This document shows, piece after piece, positions 660-36,618 of a stretch of DNA of 38,890 nucleotides; position 1 is the first letter of the stretch, and every line of letters starts with the position of its first letter. The notes below the pieces were generated by a model. That model was given only the letters and a program-made list of their open reading frames with translations. It was not told the DNA's origin and did no database searches. A program made the translations under genes and the position numbers. This stretch comes from a virus, in IMG/VR virus record IMGVR_UViG_3300021140_000016, positions 1 to 38,890 of that record. One strand, 5' to 3'.

Positions 660-2576
660 CCTATACTTTATATCGATTTTGAAACAAGAAGCGAATGTGA
701 TTTGCCTAAGCATGGCGTTTACAATTACGCGCAAGACCTGACTACTGACGTGCTGTGTATGTGCTACGCCTTTGATGATGAGGACGTGCAGACATGGGCG
801 CCTGATATGCCGTTTCCTGACCGAGTGCGTAACTTTACGGGTCAGATACGAGCGCATAACGCCGCGTTTGAGCGTTTAATATTCTGGTACGTTCTACAGA
901 TAGATTTTAAACTTGAGCAGTTTTACTGCACCGCTGTGCAAGCACGGGCAAATTGCCTTCCGGGCAGTCTTGAGGATGTTGGTCGCGCTATCTCTAGCGA
1001 GATGCGCAAAGACCACCGTGGCAAAATGCTGGTCAAGCAGTGCTGCACTCCTCCTTTTAACACCAAGCTGTTGCCTGAGCTTATCGAGTATTGCCGTCAA
1101 GACGTAAGAACCATGCGAGCAGTGTCTACTGCACTGCGTCAGTTGACAAATGACGAGCTTGCAGACTATCACGTTAACGAGCGCATTAACGACGCAGGTG
1201 TTTTGGTGGACGTTGACTTGTGCCGTGCCGCTATGCGTTATGCCAGTGTCGAGCTTGAGGAAATCCAATCTCGCGTCGTGGAGCTAACTGATGGCGCAAT
1301 TAAGTCTGTTCGTTCACCGAAGATGCGTGAGTGGGTACTTGAGCGTGTTGGTGAGTCTGCGCGGGCGCTAATGTGGAATGGTGAGAAGTATTCAATTGAC
1401 AAAAGCGTTCGCGCTAATTTGTTGCTGATGGACGACCCTGAGCAGATACCACCGCACGTTGCGGAAGTTATCCAGTGCGCGGATGACCTGTGGGCGTCGT
1501 CTGTTGCGAAGTTTAATCGTCTGCTTTCCCTTGCAGATTTCGAAGACCATCGTGTGCGTGGCGCGTTTGTGTTCAACGGTGGGTCAGCGACTGGTCGAGC
1601 GTCGTCTTACGGTGCGCAGGTGCATAACTTCACGCGGAAATGCGCTAAAGAGCCTCAACGAGTGCGTGATGATATGGTTGATGGGCGTGATATCGTTCCG
1701 GTGCATGGTAAGCGTGTTACTGACGTTTTAAAGGGTATGCTTCGCCCTGCGCTGATGCCTGCTATTGGAAACGTGTTCGTGGTAGCAGATTGGGCAGGTA
1801 TTGAAGCGCGTGTGACGCCGTGGGCGAGTTTGCAGCATGGCAGTGAAGATGTGCTTAACGTGTTTCGCAGTGGTGAGGATATTTACGTCCGTGCCGCTGC
1901 GGGTATCTTTAACCGTCCGATGGATATGATAACGCCTGACCAACGTCAAATTGGTAAGGTGGCTATTCTGTCGTGCGGCTATATGGGTGGTGCGGGTGCG
2001 TTTGGCGCGATGGGCAAAGCGTATGGCATCTCCTTACCTGAAGCGGAGGCTAAACGTACCGTTGACGCGTGGCGTCGCAGTAACTCATGGGCGGTGCAGT
2101 ATTGGGGCGAGCTTGAGCGAGCGTATATGTGCGCCATGCGCCATAAGGGTCGTGAGTTTACCGCTGGTCGCGTGACGTATCTGTTTGATGGCGTTAATTT
2201 GTGGTATGCCCTGCCGTCTGGTCGGGTGCTGTGTTATCCGTCAGCATATATTGAAGACGGGTCGGTATCTTACGCTAAGGCGGCGTGGAAACCCGCTGCT
2301 GATGCAGTCGAATGGCCGCGAGCTAGGCTATGGGCTGGACTTGCTTGTGAGAATATTACACAGGCGATTGCAAATGATTTACTTCGTGACGCATTAGCGC
2401 GAATCGGGCATACTGTCGTGCTTCATGTTCACGACGAAATCGTGCTAGAAGTGAAAAAAGAAGACGCGGCGACAGCCGCGCAAGACTTGGAAACCGTGAT
2501 GTGTAGCGCCCCTGCATGGGCAGAAGGTTTACCCTTAGCGGTTGGTGTATCAACATTAGAGAGATATGGAAAATGA
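657..2576 (+). CDS. Family A DNA polymerase with 3'-5' exonuclease domain
   Basis: Replicative DNA polymerase of 639 residues, the phage-type length lacking a 5'-nuclease domain. Exonuclease motifs: D7 and E9 in YIDFET, N68 in AHNAAFE, and Y145-D149 in YCRQD. Polymerase motifs: A with D378 in ADWAGIEAR; B from R430 and K434 to Y442 in RQIGKVAILSCGY; C in HVHDE (H592, D593, E594). The exonuclease motif starts at residue 5, so the ATG at 657 must be the true start although its ribosome site is separated by a hairpin. The last bases overlap the primase-helicase start (ATGA), suggesting translational coupling. Confidence 0.96.
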   Translation: MPILYIDFETRSECDLPKHGVYNYAQDLTTDVLCMCYAFDDEDVQTWAPDMPFPDRVRNFTGQIRAHNAAFERLIFWYVLQIDFKLEQFYCTAVQARANCLPGSLEDVGRAISSEMRKDHRGKMLVKQCCTPPFNTKLLPELIEYCRQDVRTMRAVSTALRQLTNDELADYHVNERINDAGVLVDVDLCRAAMRYASVELEEIQSRVVELTDGAIKSVRSPKMREWVLERVGESARALMWNGEKYSIDKSVRANLLLMDDPEQIPPHVAEVIQCADDLWASSVAKFNRLLSLADFEDHRVRGAFVFNGGSATGRASSYGAQVHNFTRKCAKEPQRVRDDMVDGRDIVPVHGKRVTDVLKGMLRPALMPAIGNVFVVADWAGIEARVTPWASLQHGSEDVLNVFRSGEDIYVRAAAGIFNRPMDMITPDQRQIGKVAILSCGYMGGAGAFGAMGKAYGISLPEAEAKRTVDAWRRSNSWAVQYWGELERAYMCAMRHKGREFTAGRVTYLFDGVNLWYALPSGRVLCYPSAYIEDGSVSYAKAAWKPAADAVEWPRARLWAGLACENITQAIANDLLRDALARIGHTVVLHVHDEIVLEVKKEDAATAAQDLETVMCSAPAWAEGLPLAVGVSTLERYGK

Positions 2577-4849
2577 ATTTTATTACTTACTTGGAACGTA
2601 TCGCGCCTGAAGGCGAAAGTATCCTTTTGGTCAAACAAATTGCTAAAGATAACGGTCAGTTTGCATGGCCTGCTTATCTTCCTTCTCGATACGACGGCAA
2701 AGGCGCGTGGTATGGCAATACCGCGTCGTTTATCACGTCACGTTTTAAAGATGGCAAACCGTCTGCGAGTGCGGGCAACTGCGAGTACGTTGCTTTTCTC
2801 GTGCTTGACGACATTGGCACCAAGAGTTTGCGTCCTCCTATCGAGCCGACATGGATAATGGAAACCTCACCGCAGAATTACCAGTGGGGGTACACGTTTG
2901 CTTTAGATGATATGCCCACTAAAGGTGAGTTTAGCGCCGCTATTAAAGCAATCGCTGACGCGGGCTATACTGACAGTGGCGCGATTAACCCCGTGCGTAA
3001 TTTTCGCCTTCCTGCGTCAGTCAATTTGAAGCCTGACCGTGCGTCGTTCAAATCTATTCTCGTGGAGTTTCACCCTGAGCGTGAGTTTACGCTTGACCAA
3101 ATTTGCTCGGCGCTTAACGTTCACCCGTCGGCGGCTGACACAGCGACAGTGCGCCCGATTGCTATTATCGACACAGGTAATGACGATGTGCTGGAATGGC
3201 TATCTTCTCGTGGTGACGTGATGGAGTCCGCTAACGCTGAAGGCTGGGTTGGGGTAGTTTGCCCTAACCACGTTGAGCATACAGACGGGCAGTTGATGGG
3301 CAGATACCACCCGCTTAACCGTGCCTACTGTTGCTTTCATGGGCATTGCTCGTTGTGGGACAGCCGTGCTTACCTCGCGTGGGTAGCTGAGATGGGCGGC
3401 CCTAAACACTCACATGGTCTTCGTGAAGAAATACTTGCAGAGGTCATGCACACCGCTATTGGCAAACTCGAACCGTCTGATATGTTCAGCACTGACGCGG
3501 CGGCGGCTATCATTGCAGAAGTCGAGCAGAAGGAAATCGCGCGGCTTGAGAAGGCGGAGTGGTATCAACGCTTTGCTTACGTCATGTCAGACGATTCCTA
3601 TTTCGATTTGCAAAACCGTCGTGAATTCTCACGTCAGACGTTCAACGCCGTGTTTCGTCATGTGTCGTGCAAAAGTATTCACTCTGACCGCAAGATAGAG
3701 GCCGCCATGAGCTTTGACGAGAATCGTCAGGTGATGGGCGCTAGAGTGCTGGCAGGTATCACCTTTGCTGCTGGTGACTCGGTGATTGCTATGCGTGACG
3801 GTGAATTGTATGGCAACCGATGGCGTGACGCCCGCCCAGATTCATCTCGTGGCGGAAATTTGGGTGGTGATATATCCTTATGGCTTGACCACTGTAAATC
3901 GCTTGTTCCTGATGAGCGTGAGCTGGAACACATTTGGGATTACATGGCGTTTAAGGTGCAAAATCCACGCGTTAAGATTAACCACGCTATTCTTCACGCA
4001 GGTGGTCAAGGTATCGGTAAAGATACAATGTATGCCCCGTTCATTTACGCCGTGTGCGGTCCTCACCTGCGCAACTACTCACTCATGTCTACGGACACCA
4101 TTCAATCTGCGTGGGGCTACCATTTAGAAGCTGAGATTATCGTCATTAACGAGCTTAAAGAAGCAGACAGCGCCGCCCGTCGGATGCTAGCCAACAAACT
4201 TAAGCCTGTCATTGCCGCACCACCTGAGATGCTATCCGTTAACCGCAAAGGCCTTGCACCATACAATCTTGTGAACCGCCTTGCCGTGCTTGCGTTCTCT
4301 AATGACCGTGTACCGTTGTCGCTTGAATCGGGCGACCGTCGGTGGTTTGCTACTTGGAGTACGGCGGAGCGTCTTACGCCGCAATCAGCTACCGCTATAT
4401 GGAAATGGTTTAACGACGGCGGTGGATATGACCTTATTGCCAACTGGTTGTTCTTGCGTGATGTGTCTGCGTTCAACCCTGCTGCGCCTGCGCCGATGAC
4501 AGACTTTAAGATGTCACTGGTGCAGAATGGTATGTCTGCGGTGGAGTCATCGCTTCTCGACATGATTACGGCTCGTATGGGTGAATTCGCTAACGGTGTG
4601 ATTGCCTCTCCCTTTCAAGCTATTTGTGAGCGCGCCGCTATGTCGTTTGGCAGTAAGCAATTTCCACCTGCTGCTTTGTTTCATGCACTTGAAGAAGCTG
4701 GGTGGGCTGATATGGGAATGTGCAATTCGCGCTCGTCTAAGACTAAAAAACACATTTTCTGCGCACCTGAGTTTGCGCACATGAGCAAATCTAGCCTTCG
4801 CGATTTAGCAGAACAGAAACCTGTTGCAAAAGTTGTAGCGATTAAGTAG
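2573..4849 (+). CDS. Phage primase-helicase (DUF5906/D5-like superfamily 3 ATPase)
   Basis: 758 residues, start at the ATG of an ATGA overlap with the polymerase stop. The N-terminal third resembles RepB-type primase domains (VAFLVLDDIG region, RNFRLPASVNLK). A Cys/His cluster, CPNHVEH then CCFHGHC, lies around residues 229-260 and may bind zinc as in primases. The ATPase is C-terminal: Walker A GGQGIGKDT at 477-485, an acidic Walker B-like VINELKEAD near 523-531, then FSNDRVPLSLESGDRRW, typical of DUF5906/poxvirus D5-like helicases. It probably unwinds DNA and primes for the adjoining polymerase. The primase catalytic acids cannot be assigned with certainty. Confidence 0.9.
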   Translation: MNFITYLERIAPEGESILLVKQIAKDNGQFAWPAYLPSRYDGKGAWYGNTASFITSRFKDGKPSASAGNCEYVAFLVLDDIGTKSLRPPIEPTWIMETSPQNYQWGYTFALDDMPTKGEFSAAIKAIADAGYTDSGAINPVRNFRLPASVNLKPDRASFKSILVEFHPEREFTLDQICSALNVHPSAADTATVRPIAIIDTGNDDVLEWLSSRGDVMESANAEGWVGVVCPNHVEHTDGQLMGRYHPLNRAYCCFHGHCSLWDSRAYLAWVAEMGGPKHSHGLREEILAEVMHTAIGKLEPSDMFSTDAAAAIIAEVEQKEIARLEKAEWYQRFAYVMSDDSYFDLQNRREFSRQTFNAVFRHVSCKSIHSDRKIEAAMSFDENRQVMGARVLAGITFAAGDSVIAMRDGELYGNRWRDARPDSSRGGNLGGDISLWLDHCKSLVPDERELEHIWDYMAFKVQNPRVKINHAILHAGGQGIGKDTMYAPFIYAVCGPHLRNYSLMSTDTIQSAWGYHLEAEIIVINELKEADSAARRMLANKLKPVIAAPPEMLSVNRKGLAPYNLVNRLAVLAFSNDRVPLSLESGDRRWFATWSTAERLTPQSATAIWKWFNDGGGYDLIANWLFLRDVSAFNPAAPAPMTDFKMSLVQNGMSAVESSLLDMITARMGEFANGVIASPFQAICERAAMSFGSKQFPPAALFHALEEAGWADMGMCNSRSSKTKKHIFCAPEFAHMSKSSLRDLAEQKPVAKVVAIK

Positions 4850-4888
4850 ACTAGTTGCAACAATTCTCTCTAATTGTTAGTTCATGTG

Positions 4889-4926
4889 TTCCTCAATTAT
4901 CGGCTCGGATGATTGGGGAATTTTTT
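4889..4926 (+). terminator. Strong intrinsic terminator of the replication operon
   Basis: A 13-bp stem pairs 4889-4901 with 4908-4920, containing two G-U pairs, with a six-base loop GGCTCG, followed at once by six T (4921-4926). It lies 40 bases after the helicase stop and should end rightward transcription before the convergent operon. Confidence 0.85.
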
Positions 4927-4964
4927 AGCTATGAATAAAACGCCTTGAAAGATAGCAGAGTCCT

Positions 4965-5001
4965 TACTATAACTCTAAGCGCTTAGTGGTTATAGTATAA
5001 T
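4965..5001 (+). promoter_or_regulatory. Dyad (possible operator) overlapping a perfect -10 box
   Basis: TACTATAAC (4965-4973) is repeated inverted as GTTATAGTA (4989-4997), and the centre CTAAGC/GCTTAG (4975-4986) is itself palindromic, giving arms of about 16 bases with one irregular position. A perfect TATAAT lies at 4996-5001 on the right arm; no good -35 is found at the proper distance (CTCTAA at 4973-4978). A repressor-controlled or activator-dependent rightward promoter feeding the structured stretch after it is possible. A cruciform or stem-loop of an origin is the alternative. Confidence 0.4.
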
Positions 5002-5135
5002 GCGCGAAAGCGGGGAAACCTCGGTAAAGCCGACAATTGCAAATCGATGTGTAATTGTTTGGAAGAAGTAACGGGCGTTTTATTGATAGTTAATGCGTAG
5101 GCTGATACGCAGCATCAACGCCGGCAATTATCATT
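5001..5135 (+). ncRNA. Possible structured non-coding RNA
   Basis: No protein frame is visible, but short stems follow each other: CGC-GAAA-GCG (5003-5012), GGGG-AAA-CCTC (5012-5022), TCGG-TAAAG-CCGA (5021-5033), then TGCGTA/TACGCA (5094-5111) inside a larger GGCGTT/AACGCC pair (5074-5079 with 5117-5122), with GATAGTT/AATTATC (5085-5091 with 5126-5132) as an alternative pairing. It follows a -10 box. The first part looks like the P4-P5 part of group I introns of T-even phages, but I find no guanosine-site pairing and no flanking exons. I cannot assign it to a known RNA family. Confidence 0.25.
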
Positions 5136-5166
5136 TTCAAGAATTCAGAAAAAATTTTGTCATTTG

Positions 5167-5257
5167 GTTTCGTGGCAAAAATTTGCAAATCGTTTCGTGG
5201 CAAAAATTGAGCGTTCATTAGATTTGAAATCCTAACCCCTACCAGAATTGAAATCCT
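5167..5257. repeat. Two pairs of short direct repeats in the non-coding region
   Basis: GTTTCGTGGCAAAAATT occurs exactly at 5167-5183 and 5192-5208 (25-bp step), with the palindrome ATTTGCAAAT (5181-5190) between. TTGAAATCCT occurs at 5224-5233 and 5248-5257 (24-bp step). Regular steps near two helical turns suggest protein binding sites. The rest of 5258-5486 is non-coding and AT-rich, with TACGCG repeated near 5271, 5289 and 5302 and no gene that I can see. Confidence 0.6.
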
Positions 5258-5486
5258 GAGCCTTCATATATACGCGTTTCATCACATTTACGCGTGATTT
5301 TACGCGCGCGCTTGTCATTGAATAGGGCGTTTTTATAGCCTTTATTGGCTTGTCATTAGCTGATTGAGTGATAGGTAATACTAGGGTATTGCTTTAAATT
5401 GTTTTGCAGTCTATAGGCCATTGTAGGCCGTTAAATGGCGGGCAATAAAAAAGGCCTATTAAGACTTTGCAATTGTTTGGGGCAAT

Positions 5487-5510
5487 AAAAAAAGCGGCCT
5501 TTTGGCCGCT
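5487..5510 (-). terminator. Intrinsic terminator of the leftward small-gene operon
   Basis: Read on the minus strand, AGCGGCC (5510-5504) pairs with GGCCGCT (5499-5493) around a four-base loop, followed by a run of T (5493-5487). It lies just after the last leftward small frame and faces the terminator at 4889-4926 across the convergent region. Confidence 0.85.
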
Positions 5511-5517
5511 CTCTTGT

Positions 5518-5580
5518 TTAGTTTTCTAGTAGTATCGCTAATACAGCGAATTTAACTAGAATTAAAAATATTATTATCAT
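5518..5580 (-). CDS. Candidate 20-residue membrane micropeptide
   Basis: A frame of 20 codons from ATG (5580) to TAA, giving a nearly wholly hydrophobic peptide (MIIIFLILVKFAVLAILLEN). It lies between the last recognised leftward gene and that operon's terminator, so it would be transcribed. There is no convincing Shine-Dalgarno site, and AT-rich DNA produces hydrophobic codons by chance. A single membrane helix is the only property I can support. Confidence 0.25.
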   Translation of the reverse strand: MIIIFLILVKFAVLAILLEN

Positions 5581-5589
5581 GTCATTAGC

Positions 5590-5667
5590 CTATAAAATTT
5601 CAATTACCCAATCAGCTAGTTGTTCAGGCGTAAAAGAATCATAAAAGTCACGGTATGTCTTTATCAT
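5590..5667 (-). CDS. Small 25-residue protein, unknown function
   Basis: Begins with an ATGA overlap on the stop of the gene before it (ATG at 5667-5665, TGA at 5666-5664), the junction style used throughout this genome, and ends with TAG at 5590. The peptide is soluble-looking and acidic (FYDSFTPEQLADWVIEIL), able to form one amphipathic helix. Translational coupling is the main evidence; length and unknown family keep confidence moderate. Confidence 0.45.
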   Translation of the reverse strand: MIKTYRDFYDSFTPEQLADWVIEIL

Positions 5668-6892: not shown

Positions 6893-6954
6893 GATGTTTT
6901 CTCTCTATGTTGTGGTTAGTGTAGGTAGTCAACATTAATGATGACTTGCAAAAC

Positions 6955-6982: not shown

Positions 6983-7029
6983 TACTTTTTGTTACAAACT
7001 GGTAATTTGTGGTTAGCGGTAGGTAATAT

Positions 7030-7307
7030 GTAGTCAGTCTAAAGGGTGTTAGACTGACTACGCGCGAAGCCGCGCCTGTACTGAGCTGGGAGTGTTGTAG
7101 TCAGTTGTAGGTAGTATATTTTATATATAGTAAGAATTATATAATATACCATAATAAAAATAAGGTATATAATAATATATATAAAAGAGCGGCGGTAAAA
7201 GTATTACCTACAACTGACTACAATCGCGCAAACCCACGCCACCATTGGGCGGAGGCGTAGTCAGTCGGCTATGCTTTGACTGACTACGTATGCTTACGAC
7301 TGACTAC
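7030..7307. repeat. Seven copies of GTAGTCAGT, mostly in inverted pairs
   Basis: Exact copies on the plus strand: 7030-7038, 7097-7105, 7257-7265. Copies on the minus strand (ACTGACTAC): 7053-7061, 7213-7221, 7279-7287, 7299-7307. Pairs 7030/7061 and 7257/7287 form 10-bp stems with 12- and 11-base loops. The pair at 7097-7113 and 7205-7221 extends to a perfect 17-bp inverted repeat (GTAGTCAGTTGTAGGTA) enclosing a 91-base AT-rich spacer that has its own TATACC/GGTATA pair (7145-7150, 7164-7169). This is too many exact copies for chance and suggests specific protein binding. Confidence 0.9.
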
Positions 7308-7320
7308 ACTATCAGAGCAG

Positions 7321-7448
7321 ACAGCAGACAGCAGACAGCAGACAGCAGACAGCAGACAGCAGACAGCAGACAGCAGACAGCAGACAGCAGGGCAGACAGC
7401 AGGGCAGACAGCAGGGCAGACAGCAGGGCAGACAGCAGGGCAGACACC
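7321..7448. repeat. Tandem repeats of 7 bp and then 12 bp, free of T
   Basis: ACAGCAG is repeated ten times without error (7321-7390), then GGCAGACAGCAG four times (7391-7438) plus a partial copy. The stretch from about 7315 to 7448 has no T on the plus strand. The 12-bp unit is the 7-bp unit with an added GGCAG, so the second array arose from the first by slippage. One strand is A/G/C only and hardly able to fold. Confidence 0.95.
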
Positions 7449-7482: not shown

Positions 7483-7700
7483 GTCAAATAATTGACACTT
7501 AGCCTTGGACCTCTGTAACCCGCGTATTCCGTGGTGTCCAGCGATAGGGGGGGAGGTTAAAATAAAAAATAAAGCGCAGGCGGGGAGGACTTGACAAGAC
7601 GACTGGCGGGGGCATTATCTCCAACGTTTGCATTTTTCCTGTACTAATTGCATTTATCATATATACCGTCAAATAAATGACACAATGTCAAATAATTGAC
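7483..7700. repeat. Three GTCAA-N4-TTGAC dyads (operator-like)
   Basis: GTCAAATAATTGAC at 7483-7496 and 7687-7700 and the variant GTCAAATAAATGAC at 7668-7681. The last two are 19 bases apart, near two helical turns, so dimers would bind on the same face. They lie between a possible promoter and the terminase operon, as expected of a late-gene regulator site. Confidence 0.65.
7591..7618 (+). promoter_or_regulatory. Candidate rightward promoter for the late operon
   Basis: A perfect TTGACA (7591-7596) is followed after 16 bases by CATTAT (7613-7618), four of six matches to TATAAT. The leader to the first terminase gene would be about 185 bases and would contain two of the dyads. It is the best match in the region, but late phage promoters often need activators and may not look like this. 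Confidence 0.3.
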
Positions 7701-7810: not shown

Positions 7811-8188
7811 ATGCAATCATTTCCATATTCACCAAGAGAGTTAAAAGTCACAGAGGCGCGTCTAAACGCCATTTACGACGCGTCAGCACTTGGGCTAAAG
7901 GGTGACAAGCTCGCCCTCGCTGCAGGGCTACTTCCAAGCGAGTATCGGCAGTTGTGCCAACTCGACCCAAACGTTGAGTTGATGACGATGAAGGGCGCTG
8001 CCGACGCAGAGGCGCAAATGGCACAGGTGTTAAAAGACGCGGCGCTAGGGGGTGATACAAAGGCGGCGTTAGCTATCCTTCAAAACGTGCATGGGTGGGC
8101 AAGCGCTAAAGAGCAGAACAGAGTGGCGTTCGGTATCACTAACGCGGACGGCACAGCGGCAAGCCTTGTTATCGGGTGGGAATCATGA
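7811..8188 (+). CDS. Terminase small subunit (putative)
   Basis: 125 residues directly upstream of, and overlapping by ATGA, the large terminase gene. The helical N-terminal half (LGLKGDKLALAAGLLPSEYRQLCQL) looks like the helix-turn-helix DNA-recognition domain of small terminases, and the rest (AADAEAQMAQVLKDAALGGDTKAALAILQNVHGW) like the oligomerisation helices. It should recognise the packaging site and regulate the large subunit. The ATG at 7811 lies 11 bases after AAGGA; an ATG at 7803 is closer to the site but opens only a 13-codon frame. Confidence 0.8.
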   Translation: MQSFPYSPRELKVTEARLNAIYDASALGLKGDKLALAAGLLPSEYRQLCQLDPNVELMTMKGAADAEAQMAQVLKDAALGGDTKAALAILQNVHGWASAKEQNRVAFGITNADGTAASLVIGWES

Positions 8189-9489
8189 AGGTTGTCATCC
8201 CCTACAAACCAAGAGATGTGTTTAAGCCGCTACACGCGAGAAAAGAAAGATGGGCGGTTGTGGTCGCTCACAGAAGGGCGGGCAAGTCGGTAGCGTGTAT
8301 TAACGAATTGATAAAGTGTGCTTGCACAGACACTAGTGGAGATGGTAGGTATGCCTACATCTGCCCATACTACTCACAGGCAAAACAAGTTATTTGGGAC
8401 TACTGTAAGACGTTTACAAAACCCATACCCAACATAAAGGTGAACGAAAGTGAATTACGACTCGATTTTCCAAACGGGGCGCGTATTCAGTTATTTGGTG
8501 CTGACAATCCTGACAGGCTGCGCGGTCTTTACTTTGACGGGATTATTGCTGACGAGTATGGCGATTGGAAGTCAACTGTATGGCCGTATGTTATCCGTCC
8601 TGCGCTGGCTGACCGCAAAGGGTGGGCAATAATTATTGGAACGCCAAAGGGTAAGAATAGCTTTTACGAACGCTTTGAAGCGGGCAAGCAAGACAAGGAC
8701 TGCTTTACCTTGCTGCTGACCGCATCTAATTCGGGAATTCTTGACCAAGAAGAAATTGACGCGCTGAGAAAGGAGTTGTCGGAGGACGCATGGCTACAAG
8801 AGATGGAGTGCAACTTCGACGCGGCGATACCGGGGGCTATTTACGGCAGAGAAATGTACGAAGTGGGGCAATCGGGTAGGGTACGGCCTTGCTACGACCG
8901 CAAACTCAAGACGTATGCAGCTATCGATTTGGGGTGGAGCGACGACACGGCGATTTGGTGGTTTCAGGTGGCGGGCAAAGAGCTTAGGTTTATTGACTGC
9001 TACAGCAACAGCGGAATGCCTATCGCGCACTATCATGACATTTTGCAAAGTAAAGGCTATGATTATGGCGAATGGCTATATTTGCCGCACGACGCAAAAG
9101 CTAAATCATTGCAAACGGGCAGAAGTATTGAGGAGCAATTTCGCTCACTTGGGTGGTCACCTAGAATTGTCCCAAATATATCACTTATGGACGGAATACA
9201 AGCCGCTAGGTTATCATTAGCAAACTGTTGGTTTGACCCAAGCTGCAAAGAAGGAATGGAAGCGCTAACACAGTACCAAAGAGAGTATAATGTGGACAAA
9301 AAGGTATTTAATGAACGCCCCAAACACGATTGGACATCTCACTTTGCTGATGCTTTCCGGTACGCGTGTCTTGCATGGCGTGAACAACGACCAGACGCAG
9401 CGCCAAAACCCAAAGCAAAATTCTGGGAAGACCAGTCCTTAGAGGAGTTGTGGGAACACAGCTCGAAACGTAGAGGTAGACGAATATAA
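8185..9489 (+). CDS. Terminase large subunit (ATPase and nuclease)
   Basis: 434 residues, start at the ATG of the ATGA overlap (an upstream GTG at 8176 is rejected). It opens with IPYKPRDVFKPLHAR, typical of this family. Variant Walker A AHRRAGKS near residues 28-36; Walker B GIIADEYGDW near 119-128; coupling motif IIGTPKGKNSFYE near 150-162. The C-terminal RNase H-like nuclease has the first acid in AAIDLGWSDDTA near 246-257 and a late one in HFADAFRYACLAW near 390-402. It translocates DNA into the prohead and cuts it, with the small subunit and portal as partners. Confidence 0.95.
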   Translation: MKVVIPYKPRDVFKPLHARKERWAVVVAHRRAGKSVACINELIKCACTDTSGDGRYAYICPYYSQAKQVIWDYCKTFTKPIPNIKVNESELRLDFPNGARIQLFGADNPDRLRGLYFDGIIADEYGDWKSTVWPYVIRPALADRKGWAIIIGTPKGKNSFYERFEAGKQDKDCFTLLLTASNSGILDQEEIDALRKELSEDAWLQEMECNFDAAIPGAIYGREMYEVGQSGRVRPCYDRKLKTYAAIDLGWSDDTAIWWFQVAGKELRFIDCYSNSGMPIAHYHDILQSKGYDYGEWLYLPHDAKAKSLQTGRSIEEQFRSLGWSPRIVPNISLMDGIQAARLSLANCWFDPSCKEGMEALTQYQREYNVDKKVFNERPKHDWTSHFADAFRYACLAWREQRPDAAPKPKAKFWEDQSLEELWEHSSKRRGRRI

Positions 9490-11705
9490 TGAGTGACAAA
9501 CTATCAGCACAGCCTTGGCACGACGAAATATCGCGCTACCAAGAAGAATATAGAAAGTGGACGGAGCGCGGCGAAAAGATTATCAAGCGCTACCGCGACG
9601 AGCGCAAAGACGCAGAGCAAGCGGACGCACGATTTAATATTCTTTGGTCTAACGTACAGACACTAAAACCTGCCATTTACGCAAAACCACCCAATCCTGA
9701 TATTTCAAGACGTTTTGACGATAAAAACGACGCCGGCAGAGTAGCGGCGATGATTTTAGAGCGCGTTCTTGACTTTGAGATTAAGGAATACCCTGATTTT
9801 CACGATACGCTGTCTTGCGTGGTGGATGATAGGCTTCTTCCGGGCAGAGGCGTGGCGTGGCTACGCTATGAGCCTAAGATTGAAGAATTTGAGCCTTCAA
9901 TTACCAATTATGCGGAGATAGGCGGGGAAGAATACTCACCTGAACGCACACTGGACGAAGAAAACGGGCTGGCGCAGACGGAAGTCTACGAACACGTTGT
10001 GTCTGAAACAACACCGGTGGATTATGTCTATTGGCAGGACTTTGCGCATCTACCTGCTCGGACATGGGACGAGGTGACATGGGTGGCACGACGCGTCTAT
10101 ATGACGTTAGACGAGGGGGTAGACCGCTTTGGCGACATCTTTGAGAAAGTTCCGTTAACTAACACGTCAAATCGTAAAGACGGCGACAAAGAAACTACTA
10201 AAGCCGATAAAAAGGCAGAAATCTGGGAAATTTGGTCAAAAGCAGAAAAATGCGTCTATTGGATAGCGGAGCAGTACGATGTCATTTTAGACCACAGAGA
10301 TGACCCACTAGAGCTTTCAAACTTCTTTCCCTGCCCTAAACCTTACTTTGCCACTACATCGACAGGGACGCTGATTCCTGTAGCAGATTTTCTACTCTAT
10401 CAAGACCAAGCAGACGAGATTGACGAGCTAACAGGTCGAATCAAGCATTTGACCAAAGCGCTTAAAGTCATGGGCATCTACGCGGCGGACGAGCCTGCGA
10501 TTGAACGCTTGATGAAAGAAGGTAACGATGGGGTGCTTGTCCCTGTCAAAAACTGGGCGGCGTTTGTTGAAAAAGGCGGACTGCAAGGCGCTGTGCAATT
10601 TATGCCACTTGGCGACGTTGCGTCTGCGTTGCAACAGCTATATCAAGCGCGTGAGTCATGTAAGCAAATCATTTACGAAACAACTGGCCTGTCCGACATC
10701 ATGCGTGGCGCGTCGGTAGCGAGTGAAACCGCGACAGCACAGCAAATTAAGAGTCAGTTTGCATCACTACGTCTTGGCAACATGAAAGACGGGCTGTATC
10801 GCTTTGCGCGTGAAATCCTGCGCATGAAGTCAGAGATTATCTGTTCAAAATACCAACCACAGACATTAGTTGAAGTGTCAGGCATTATGAATACGCCTGA
10901 CGCGCAATTTGTAGAGCAAGCGATTCAACTGCTTAAAAACGAACCTGCTAGGGTTTTCAATATTGATATTGAAACCGATACGCTAGTTGAGCTTGATAAG
11001 CAGACTGAAAAGCAAAACCGCATGGAATTTTTGACAGCGGTAAGCGGCTTTATTAAAGACGGCATTGGCGCGGTTAAAGAAGACCCTGCAATGGCGCCGT
11101 TAGTTGGAGAGCTATTGCTTTATGGTGTTCGTGGGTTTAAAGCGGGCAGAGAACTTGAAGGTGTCCTTGAGCAGTTTGTTGACCAAGCGGCTAAAAAAGC
11201 AGCAGGACCGCAACCACCGAGCAAAGACGAACAGCGTACACAAGCAGAGGCGCAAATTGCCCAAATGAAGATGCAAGCACAACAGCAATCAGAACAAGCG
11301 ACAATGCAGCTTGAACAAGTGAAACTTCAAGCTAGCAATCAACTTGAACAAGCTAAACTCGAATTTGATAAGTGGAAAACACAGCTTGATAATGATACAA
11401 AGATTACCATTGCGCAGATACAAGCTCAAAACAGTATGAAGCAACACGTTTTAAGTTTAAATGCAGGTAAAGAAGATTCAATGACAGAACTTGATGAAAC
11501 TGGAAACCCACAGTTGAATAGCGTATTATCAACATCACTAAACAATGTCATTGAAAACGTAAATATGAACATGACGCAAATGATGACACTTGCAAACCAA
11601 CAGAACCAAGCATTACTCGACAGAATGTCTGAAATGCACAACCAAGTAACTCGACCAAAACAAGTTGTTCGAGATGCTAACGGCAGAATTATAGGAGTCA
11701 AATAA
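9489..11705 (+). CDS. Portal protein, P22-like
   Basis: 738 residues, near the length of P22 portal (725). The start overlaps the terminase stop by one base (TAATG). The N-terminal half is typical of portals (SNVQTLKPAIYAKPPNPDI, DYVYWQDFAHLPARTWDEVTWVARRVYMT), followed by the long stem and clip region with YETTGLSDIMRGA. The C-terminus from about residue 575 is Gln-rich coiled coil (AEAQIAQMKMQAQQQSEQ), like the barrel of P22-type portals. It forms the dodecameric DNA gate and the docking site of terminase and adaptor. Confidence 0.93.
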   Translation: MSDKLSAQPWHDEISRYQEEYRKWTERGEKIIKRYRDERKDAEQADARFNILWSNVQTLKPAIYAKPPNPDISRRFDDKNDAGRVAAMILERVLDFEIKEYPDFHDTLSCVVDDRLLPGRGVAWLRYEPKIEEFEPSITNYAEIGGEEYSPERTLDEENGLAQTEVYEHVVSETTPVDYVYWQDFAHLPARTWDEVTWVARRVYMTLDEGVDRFGDIFEKVPLTNTSNRKDGDKETTKADKKAEIWEIWSKAEKCVYWIAEQYDVILDHRDDPLELSNFFPCPKPYFATTSTGTLIPVADFLLYQDQADEIDELTGRIKHLTKALKVMGIYAADEPAIERLMKEGNDGVLVPVKNWAAFVEKGGLQGAVQFMPLGDVASALQQLYQARESCKQIIYETTGLSDIMRGASVASETATAQQIKSQFASLRLGNMKDGLYRFAREILRMKSEIICSKYQPQTLVEVSGIMNTPDAQFVEQAIQLLKNEPARVFNIDIETDTLVELDKQTEKQNRMEFLTAVSGFIKDGIGAVKEDPAMAPLVGELLLYGVRGFKAGRELEGVLEQFVDQAAKKAAGPQPPSKDEQRTQAEAQIAQMKMQAQQQSEQATMQLEQVKLQASNQLEQAKLEFDKWKTQLDNDTKITIAQIQAQNSMKQHVLSLNAGKEDSMTELDETGNPQLNSVLSTSLNNVIENVNMNMTQMMTLANQQNQALLDRMSEMHNQVTRPKQVVRDANGRIIGVK

Positions 11706-36224: not shown

Positions 36225-36421
36225 TTTGACACCATATTACCTTGCACATCGCGCGTCATTTCATAAACGCCATATACTTTGCCGTCACGAAGCATAAACT
36301 CGCCAATGTTAGTTTTAATAATGTTTTGATATTGTCTGTGCGTGGCGTATATTGTCAGCGTTGATGCAATAGCGCCAATCAAAAACGCGCCAATGGCTAT
36401 GTATAAAAGTTCATCTTTCAT
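36221..36421 (-). CDS. Small membrane-anchored protein
   Basis: 66 residues; ATGA overlap at both ends. One N-terminal membrane helix (LLYIAIGAFLIGAIASTLTIYA) followed by a 40-residue polar, probably cytoplasmic part (IGEFMLRDGKVYGVYEMTRD). No family recognised. Could be an inner-membrane host-takeover or superinfection-exclusion factor; this is speculation from topology. Confidence 0.65.
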   Translation of the reverse strand: MKDELLYIAIGAFLIGAIASTLTIYATHRQYQNIIKTNIGEFMLRDGKVYGVYEMTRDVQGNMVSK

Positions 36422-36618
36422 TTTCCATTCCCTCTAATGCCAAGTCTAAGTCTGGCTTTGTCTAAATCTTTAACGCGCCACAAGAATGACGGTGCGCCTG
36501 CTTCGGATAATCTTATACTGCCGGCAGGATATACCCCCATCTTAACGATGTGATAGTCCATACTGGTGCGGCTAACTTTATGTGTCGCGCAGTAGGCTTT
36601 TAAGGTTATTTCAGTCAC
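36418..36618 (-). CDS. Small helix-turn-helix-like protein
   Basis: 66 residues; ATGA overlaps on both sides. TLKAYCATHKVSRTSMDYHIVKMGVYP looks like a helix-turn-helix of the MerR/excisionase type, followed by SFLWRVKDLDKARLRLG, which could be its wing and third helix. A DNA-binding regulator of this or another operon is inferred. It is the only helix-turn-helix candidate found outside the terminase. Confidence 0.6.
   Translation of the reverse strand: MTEITLKAYCATHKVSRTSMDYHIVKMGVYPAGSIRLSEAGAPSFLWRVKDLDKARLRLGIRGNGK

Follow-up and report, generated by a model that had tools for sequence, protein, structure and literature searches.

A two-orientation iteron array, probably read by a primase-helicase wing, as a likely replication origin in a lineage of uncultivated tailed phages

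Replication origins are normally conservative. Several known systems come close to the locus described here. P4 alpha binds its origin repeats through a winged helix (PMC4234260). PICI origins consist of two iteron sets flanking an AT-rich region, a layout described as occurring in no further replicon known (PMC6092414). In the PLE satellites of the ICP1 system, the RepA_N DNA-binding domain covaries with the origin iterons, only cognate pairs replicate, and an origin-directed nuclease has been proposed as selecting for change (PMC8263062). Additionally, the NrS-1 protein recognises an 8-nt template sequence that occurs only twice in its own genome (PMC7102993).

The array and its genomic setting

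The DNA analysed here, called the window, is an IMG/VR virus record contig of 38,890 bp from an uncultivated tailed phage. In about 60 relatives, 140-145 bp join the sequences that match its end and its start; the window therefore represents an almost complete circular genome of ~39.03 kb, opened and lacking only ~143 bp. The contig holds terminase, portal, further virion genes and lysis genes, and it also encodes an SNF2 helicase. Its main landmarks are as follows:

657-2576: PolA-type polymerase
2516-4849, plus strand: primase-helicase of 777 aa, with a weak RepB_primase match, a DUF5906 helicase domain and a predicted C-terminal winged helix
7811-8188: small-terminase candidate
8176-9489: terL
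9489-11705: portal
right end of the contig: DUF2800 exonuclease

Several other segments deserve mention. The roughly 800 bp 3' of the primase gene (4849-5664) have no evident long ORF, carry TTTCGTGGCAAAAATT direct repeats and show no match to Rfam; within them, a segment at about 4926-5155 is missing or different in many relatives. A minus-strand gene at 35493-36224 matches PHROG 887 (queuine tRNA-ribosyltransferase-like) and is possibly linked to deazaguanine chemistry. The protein encoded at 36418-36618 is found in 46 loci, of which the array-classed ones all belong to the window's clade, though not all other loci reach the gene.

The array occupies a non-coding gap, with small minus-strand genes on one side and the small-terminase candidate on the other, about 2.2 kb from the upstream primase-helicase gene. 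A preliminary description, made from the letters alone, had reported seven exact 9-mers, three facing four, and all of them are present: three forward and four reverse copies of GTAGTCAGT within 278 bp (7030+, 7053-, 7097+, 7213-, 7257+, 7279- and 7299-), with no further exact copy in the rest of the 38,890-bp contig. Across 60 dinucleotide shuffles, the largest two-orientation 9-mer cluster per 300 bp was four, reached in one shuffle, versus the seven observed. The two stem-loops that it described are likewise there, and the inverted repeat it gave as 17 bp is perfect over 19 bp, within a 27-nt repeat of 89%. The enclosed AT-rich DNA at 7112-7188 holds the contig's only 70-bp stretches with at least 90% A+T.

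Degenerate copies had been overlooked. With a cut-off of at least 8/10 matches to TGTAGKYAGT, the interval 7008-7308 contains 11 sites, and two more lie at 6911 and 6920, so the seven exact sites are the best copies in an array of about 11 half-sites of the 9-bp type (TGTAGKYAG), spaced mostly 10-11 bp apart in the window phage. The elements of the locus are:

7008..7038, plus strand: left outer direct repeats TGTGGTTAGC, GGTAGGTAAT, TGTAGTCAGT, at 10-11 bp spacing, from the consensus scan
7030-7042/7049-7061: first stem-loop, 13 bp perfect with a 6-nt loop
7053..7062, minus strand: site CGTAGTCAGT, facing 7029-7038
7096..7115, plus strand: left core-flanking direct pair TGTAGTCAGT TGTAGGTAGT, at 10-bp spacing, with the left inverted-repeat arm at 7095-7113
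7112..7188, unstranded: A+T-rich core, a candidate unwinding element, with an equivalent core in relatives
7203..7222, minus strand: right core-flanking direct pair TGTAGGTAAT, TGTAGTCAGT, with the right inverted-repeat arm at 7205-7223
7256-7266/7278-7288: second stem-loop, 11 bp with an 11-nt loop
7256..7308, both strands: right outer sites at 7256-7265 (plus), 7279-7288 (minus) and 7299-7308 (minus)
7316..7446, unstranded: GC-rich minisatellite, (AGCAGAC)n then (GCAGACAGCAGG)n, part of the locus

L090, one of the relatives, shows three clean copies 11 bp apart at the position of the left outer repeats, and relatives have an additional right outer site near 7289-7298 that is degenerate in the window. 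Clustered short direct repeats in both orientations beside an A+T-rich element are thus found here, as in iteron origins.

The minisatellite lies directly to the right of the array and is hypervariable in both unit and copy number. Near-identical phage L117 has 24.7 copies against 18.7, and near relatives carry unrelated units at the same position (TGACATCCTCAGGC, GCTGGT, CTGGAA, GCTGATTCGCCTT, CCTTGC, CAGT and others). It is missing in some relatives, and it breaks assemblies.

A conserved layout with replaceable units

Searches with terL and the primase yielded about 240 IMG/VR loci, and about 100 of these relatives show the array layout of the window at the matching position with a variable unit. 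Within the window's clade, the aligned sequences keep the site order, the A+T core and the outer sites, with the unit TGTAG[GT][CT]AG. Distant relatives, whose primases are about 60-67% identical, have the same layout with another unit across the whole array: TGTTAGCAA, TGTATCA, TGTGTACA, TGTAAGCAA/TGTATGCAA, TGCATGCAA, TGTGGACAA, TTGGGTCAT, TTGGCAAT, TCTCGGCAG and others, in about 17 classes assigned by eye from the printed sequence. Adjacent units on one strand mostly keep a distance of 9 bp (241 of 281 cases), with 10 bp in 23 and 11 bp in 4; 9 bp is the usual spacing in most relatives. What is constant is the A+T core between opposed tandem units; the letters vary.

Beyond these loci, the GenBank sequence MW202483.1 (primase 49% identical) has a similar array with a TTGGTAGTG unit and an A+T-rich core inside. 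A nucleotide search of the array region against GenBank phages gave no match, an Rfam scan of the window gave no family, and the scan used for arrays found no clear equivalent near the distant DUF5906 primases of L250-L253. The cultured Rhodoferax phage P26218 (L249), whose terL is 43% identical, carries an opposed GTAGCAG array (TTGTAGCAG) at about 10-bp spacing at 2660-3000, between its RepA gene and terL; no significant similarity links this RepA with the primase-helicase of the window.

Covariation of the unit with the primase-helicase wing

The window's primase-helicase matches DUF5906 with 38.8 bits (cutoff 27.6), and its helicase region matches PDB 6k9c/6lrb 'Primase' (E=1.8e-8), which we take to be the NrS-1 protein. 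A Zn-ribbon plus Toprim primase N-terminus was not found in the protein; only a sub-threshold RepB_primase match was. AlphaFold2 models, generated from the window's and the loci's own sequences, predict a winged helix at the C-terminus. Confidence rises from a pLDDT of 73 for a longer piece (residues 643-777) to 87.5 for the trimmed domain, whose predicted elements in local numbering are H4-14, E24-27, H29-40, H47-57, E60-66 and E73-78. The Foldseek matches to this model were all generic winged helices (E of 0.04 or more), with no P4-domain-specific match among the matches listed; a Pox_D5 match is absent, and searching the PDB with the domain, by phmmer and by profile, gave nothing meaningful. 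Residues are numbered from the Met start of the window protein:

4529..4804, plus strand: C-terminal winged-helix domain, aa 672-763 (AlphaFold2, mean pLDDT 87.5)
4706..4762, plus strand: wing hairpin, aa 731-749, with the covarying residues (covariation and model)

Unit classes interleave along the primase tree, requiring 16 changes for nine groups where the minimum is 8, and this provides many close pairs of phages with different arrays. In such pairs, the primase bodies are nearly alike, up to 99% identical, but the C-terminal segment is not. Among 20 disjoint sister pairs with different units, a 16-residue wing segment differs at 122 of 320 positions (38%) against 8% in the body, whereas in 34 same-unit sister pairs the corresponding values are 25/544 (5%) and 4.5%. 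Fisher's test gives P=2e-36, a value to be read as very strong rather than literally, the pairs being related and kinship only partly controlled. The top wing columns differ in 19/20 different-unit pairs and in 1/34 same-unit pairs.

The covarying residues are 733, 736, 737, 739, 740, 742, 743 and 744 (local 62-73), all of which fall in E60-66/E73-78, the predicted beta2-wing-beta3 hairpin. Tabulated by unit class, the wings resemble a code:

GGGTCA unit: D-L-GR-V-A-S-(G/S)-D-(F/Y)-(Q/P)-(S/T)-K-KH
GGACA unit: D-C-GR-L-K-S-R-(E/D)-(F/Y)-D-x-K-KH, a few with M or R for C
TGTACA unit: D-M-GR-L-K-S-R-E-F-P-S-V-KH
TATCA unit: D-(N/K)-GR-L-K-S-(T/A)-D-(F/Y)-P-S-Q-KH
GTAAG unit: D-M-GR-I-A-S-R-E-F-T-T-Q-KH

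The wing that accompanies the GGACA unit (C/L/K/R/D/I) recurs on separate branches of the tree. At finer scale, within the window's own clade, Met733 accompanies GTAGT in 17/18 cases and Lys733 accompanies GTAGG in 12/13 (P=1e-6), the exceptions being L121 (Lys, GTAGT) and L028 (Met, GTAGG); this contrast is accompanied by a change in spacing from 10 to 9 bp.

Control proteins behave differently. The same pair test applied to PolA and the small terminase gave best excesses of 0.108 and 0.114, compared with 0.385 for the primase, and no comparable unit-covarying segment appeared in either. Indeed, the small terminases are 100% identical in the pairs L226/L223 and L204/L154 despite different array units. 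With about 2.2 kb between array and primase gene, genetic linkage may contribute to the association, but linkage alone is hard to square with small terminases that are identical beyond the array and with a signal confined to the wing. On these comparisons, the primase-helicase is almost certainly the reader of the array. Synonymous divergence in the wing of different-unit pairs is 0.65, versus 0.31-0.37 in the flanks and 0.34 in same-unit wings, and this doubling suggests exchange of the wing as a short mosaic segment instead of mutation in situ.

The origin reading, its rivals and known systems

With the primase-helicase as its probable reader, the array is best explained as a replication origin or an essential cis-acting replication region whose iterons are bound in tandem by the wing, a reading to which we assign a probability of about 0.86 from sequence comparison. 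The cognate initiator of such an iteron origin is identified here through covariation only. We infer physical binding, core melting and initiation at the array along the following lines. The C-terminal wing would bind the iterons in tandem, and protein copies sitting on the two facing sets of repeats would deform and melt the A+T-rich DNA between them. The strands laid bare would serve for assembly of the helicase domain, and primers for the phage PolA would come from the primase domain. GC skew does not change sign at the array and lends this reading no support.

The preliminary description had proposed an initiator or terminase binding complex; the initiator half agrees with the covariation, and the terminase half fails. 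For a pac or cos site at which the small terminase binds to begin packaging, the position would suit: the small-terminase candidate and terL follow about 0.5 kb downstream, and the contigs of many relatives end near the array. Yet these ends fall within the minisatellite or overlap across the array, a pattern expected of assembly breaks at repeats, while the window crosses the array and opens elsewhere, with ~143 bp missing. A pac or cos site would need a terminase that covaries with it, and the identity of small terminases across different units removes this reader, which leaves a packaging role most improbable. A conserved block with long G runs (CGATAGGGGGGGAGG ... GCGCAGGCGGGGAGG) at 7530-7640, between the minisatellite and the small-terminase candidate, is alignable in most relatives of the window's clade and is a better cos/pac candidate than the array.

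Regulation is another option: the primase-helicase, or another protein whose wing has matching specificity, would use the array as an operator to repress or time the divergent promoters that serve the late operon or the small minus-strand genes. The array's location between divergent gene sets fits this, as do the extra sites at 6911 and 6920, which fall in the leader of the 6692-6892 gene, but 11 sites over 300 bp around an A+T core far exceed typical phage operators, and the covarying partner is the primase-helicase, not a repressor. We therefore regard a purely regulatory array as very unlikely, with the proviso that origin function and autoregulation are compatible. P4 has two such regions, ori and crr, and the position downstream of the primase gene resembles that of crr; the array could accordingly be a secondary cis region partnering another origin elsewhere, but the contig contains no second copy, and we consider this unlikely. 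Two further ideas were dropped. The TGTGGACAA class resembles TTATCCACA, the DnaA-box sequence, and most units are unlike it. A functional stem-loop, as RNA or hairpin, was discarded because the stems are a by-product of opposed sites and the loops are not conserved.

If the array is an origin, its variability is unusual, as close relatives with primase bodies up to 99% identical would have different origin sequences and matching changes in one wing. Unit and wing change together, and often, so related phages would carry mutually distinct initiator-origin pairs. There is perhaps an even chance of a broader picture: a widespread freshwater lineage that keeps replacing its origin specificity, in which about eight mosaic-exchanged wing residues dictate the array, at least nine distinct pairs exist, the driver is probably conflict with phages or satellites that co-infect and either make use of the origin or attack it, and the code is readable and partly predictable. 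What selects for such rapid change in origin specificity is a question that the variability poses. Moreover, the pairs offer a natural library for testing how winged helices read DNA, and the array defines a likely origin for a large group of uncultivated phages.

Compared with known systems, the window protein resembles P4 alpha in being a fused primase-helicase with a DUF5906 helicase domain (38.2 bits in P4 alpha, cutoff 27.6); its predicted C-terminal winged helix, with generic structural matches, is a possible counterpart of the P4 origin-binding domain. Like the arrays here, the P4 ori/crr type 1 iterons are short and lie beside an A+T-rich neighbour; the annotated P4 origin repeats have 9/10/11-bp spacing in both orientations, and the P4 unit GGTGAACAG resembles the TGTGGACAA class. 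The differences are that the primase of P4 alpha is of the zinc-ribbon/Toprim kind and its C-terminus matches Pox_D5, neither of which holds for the proteins of the window's lineage; a profile comparison of the window primase-helicase with full-length P4 alpha gave no significant match, and P4 is a satellite whereas the window is a full phage with its own PolA. The array also shows the PICI layout of two iteron sets around an A+T-rich region 3' of the initiator gene (PMC6092414), at 2.2 kb downstream rather than immediately 3'. PICIs are satellites dependent on helper virion genes, whereas the window phage has its own terminase, portal and PolA. Its different primase domain, lack of a Pox_D5 match and own virion and PolA genes thus set it outside both P4 and PICI. 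NrS-1 type PrimPol-helicases share the helicase-region match and read an 8-nt template sequence where the window phage has an iteron array.

The PLE system provides the parallel for an initiator DNA-binding domain that covaries with origin iterons, although it involves another initiator family, iterons of about 30 bp and two described types, as against at least nine units here and a code at single wing residues. Collectively, these comparisons are best explained by a P4/PICI-like type of origin in a lineage of complete tailed phages that has at least nine natural specificities and, at residue level, a putative recognition code; the PICI/P4-type origin layout would thereby extend to complete phages.
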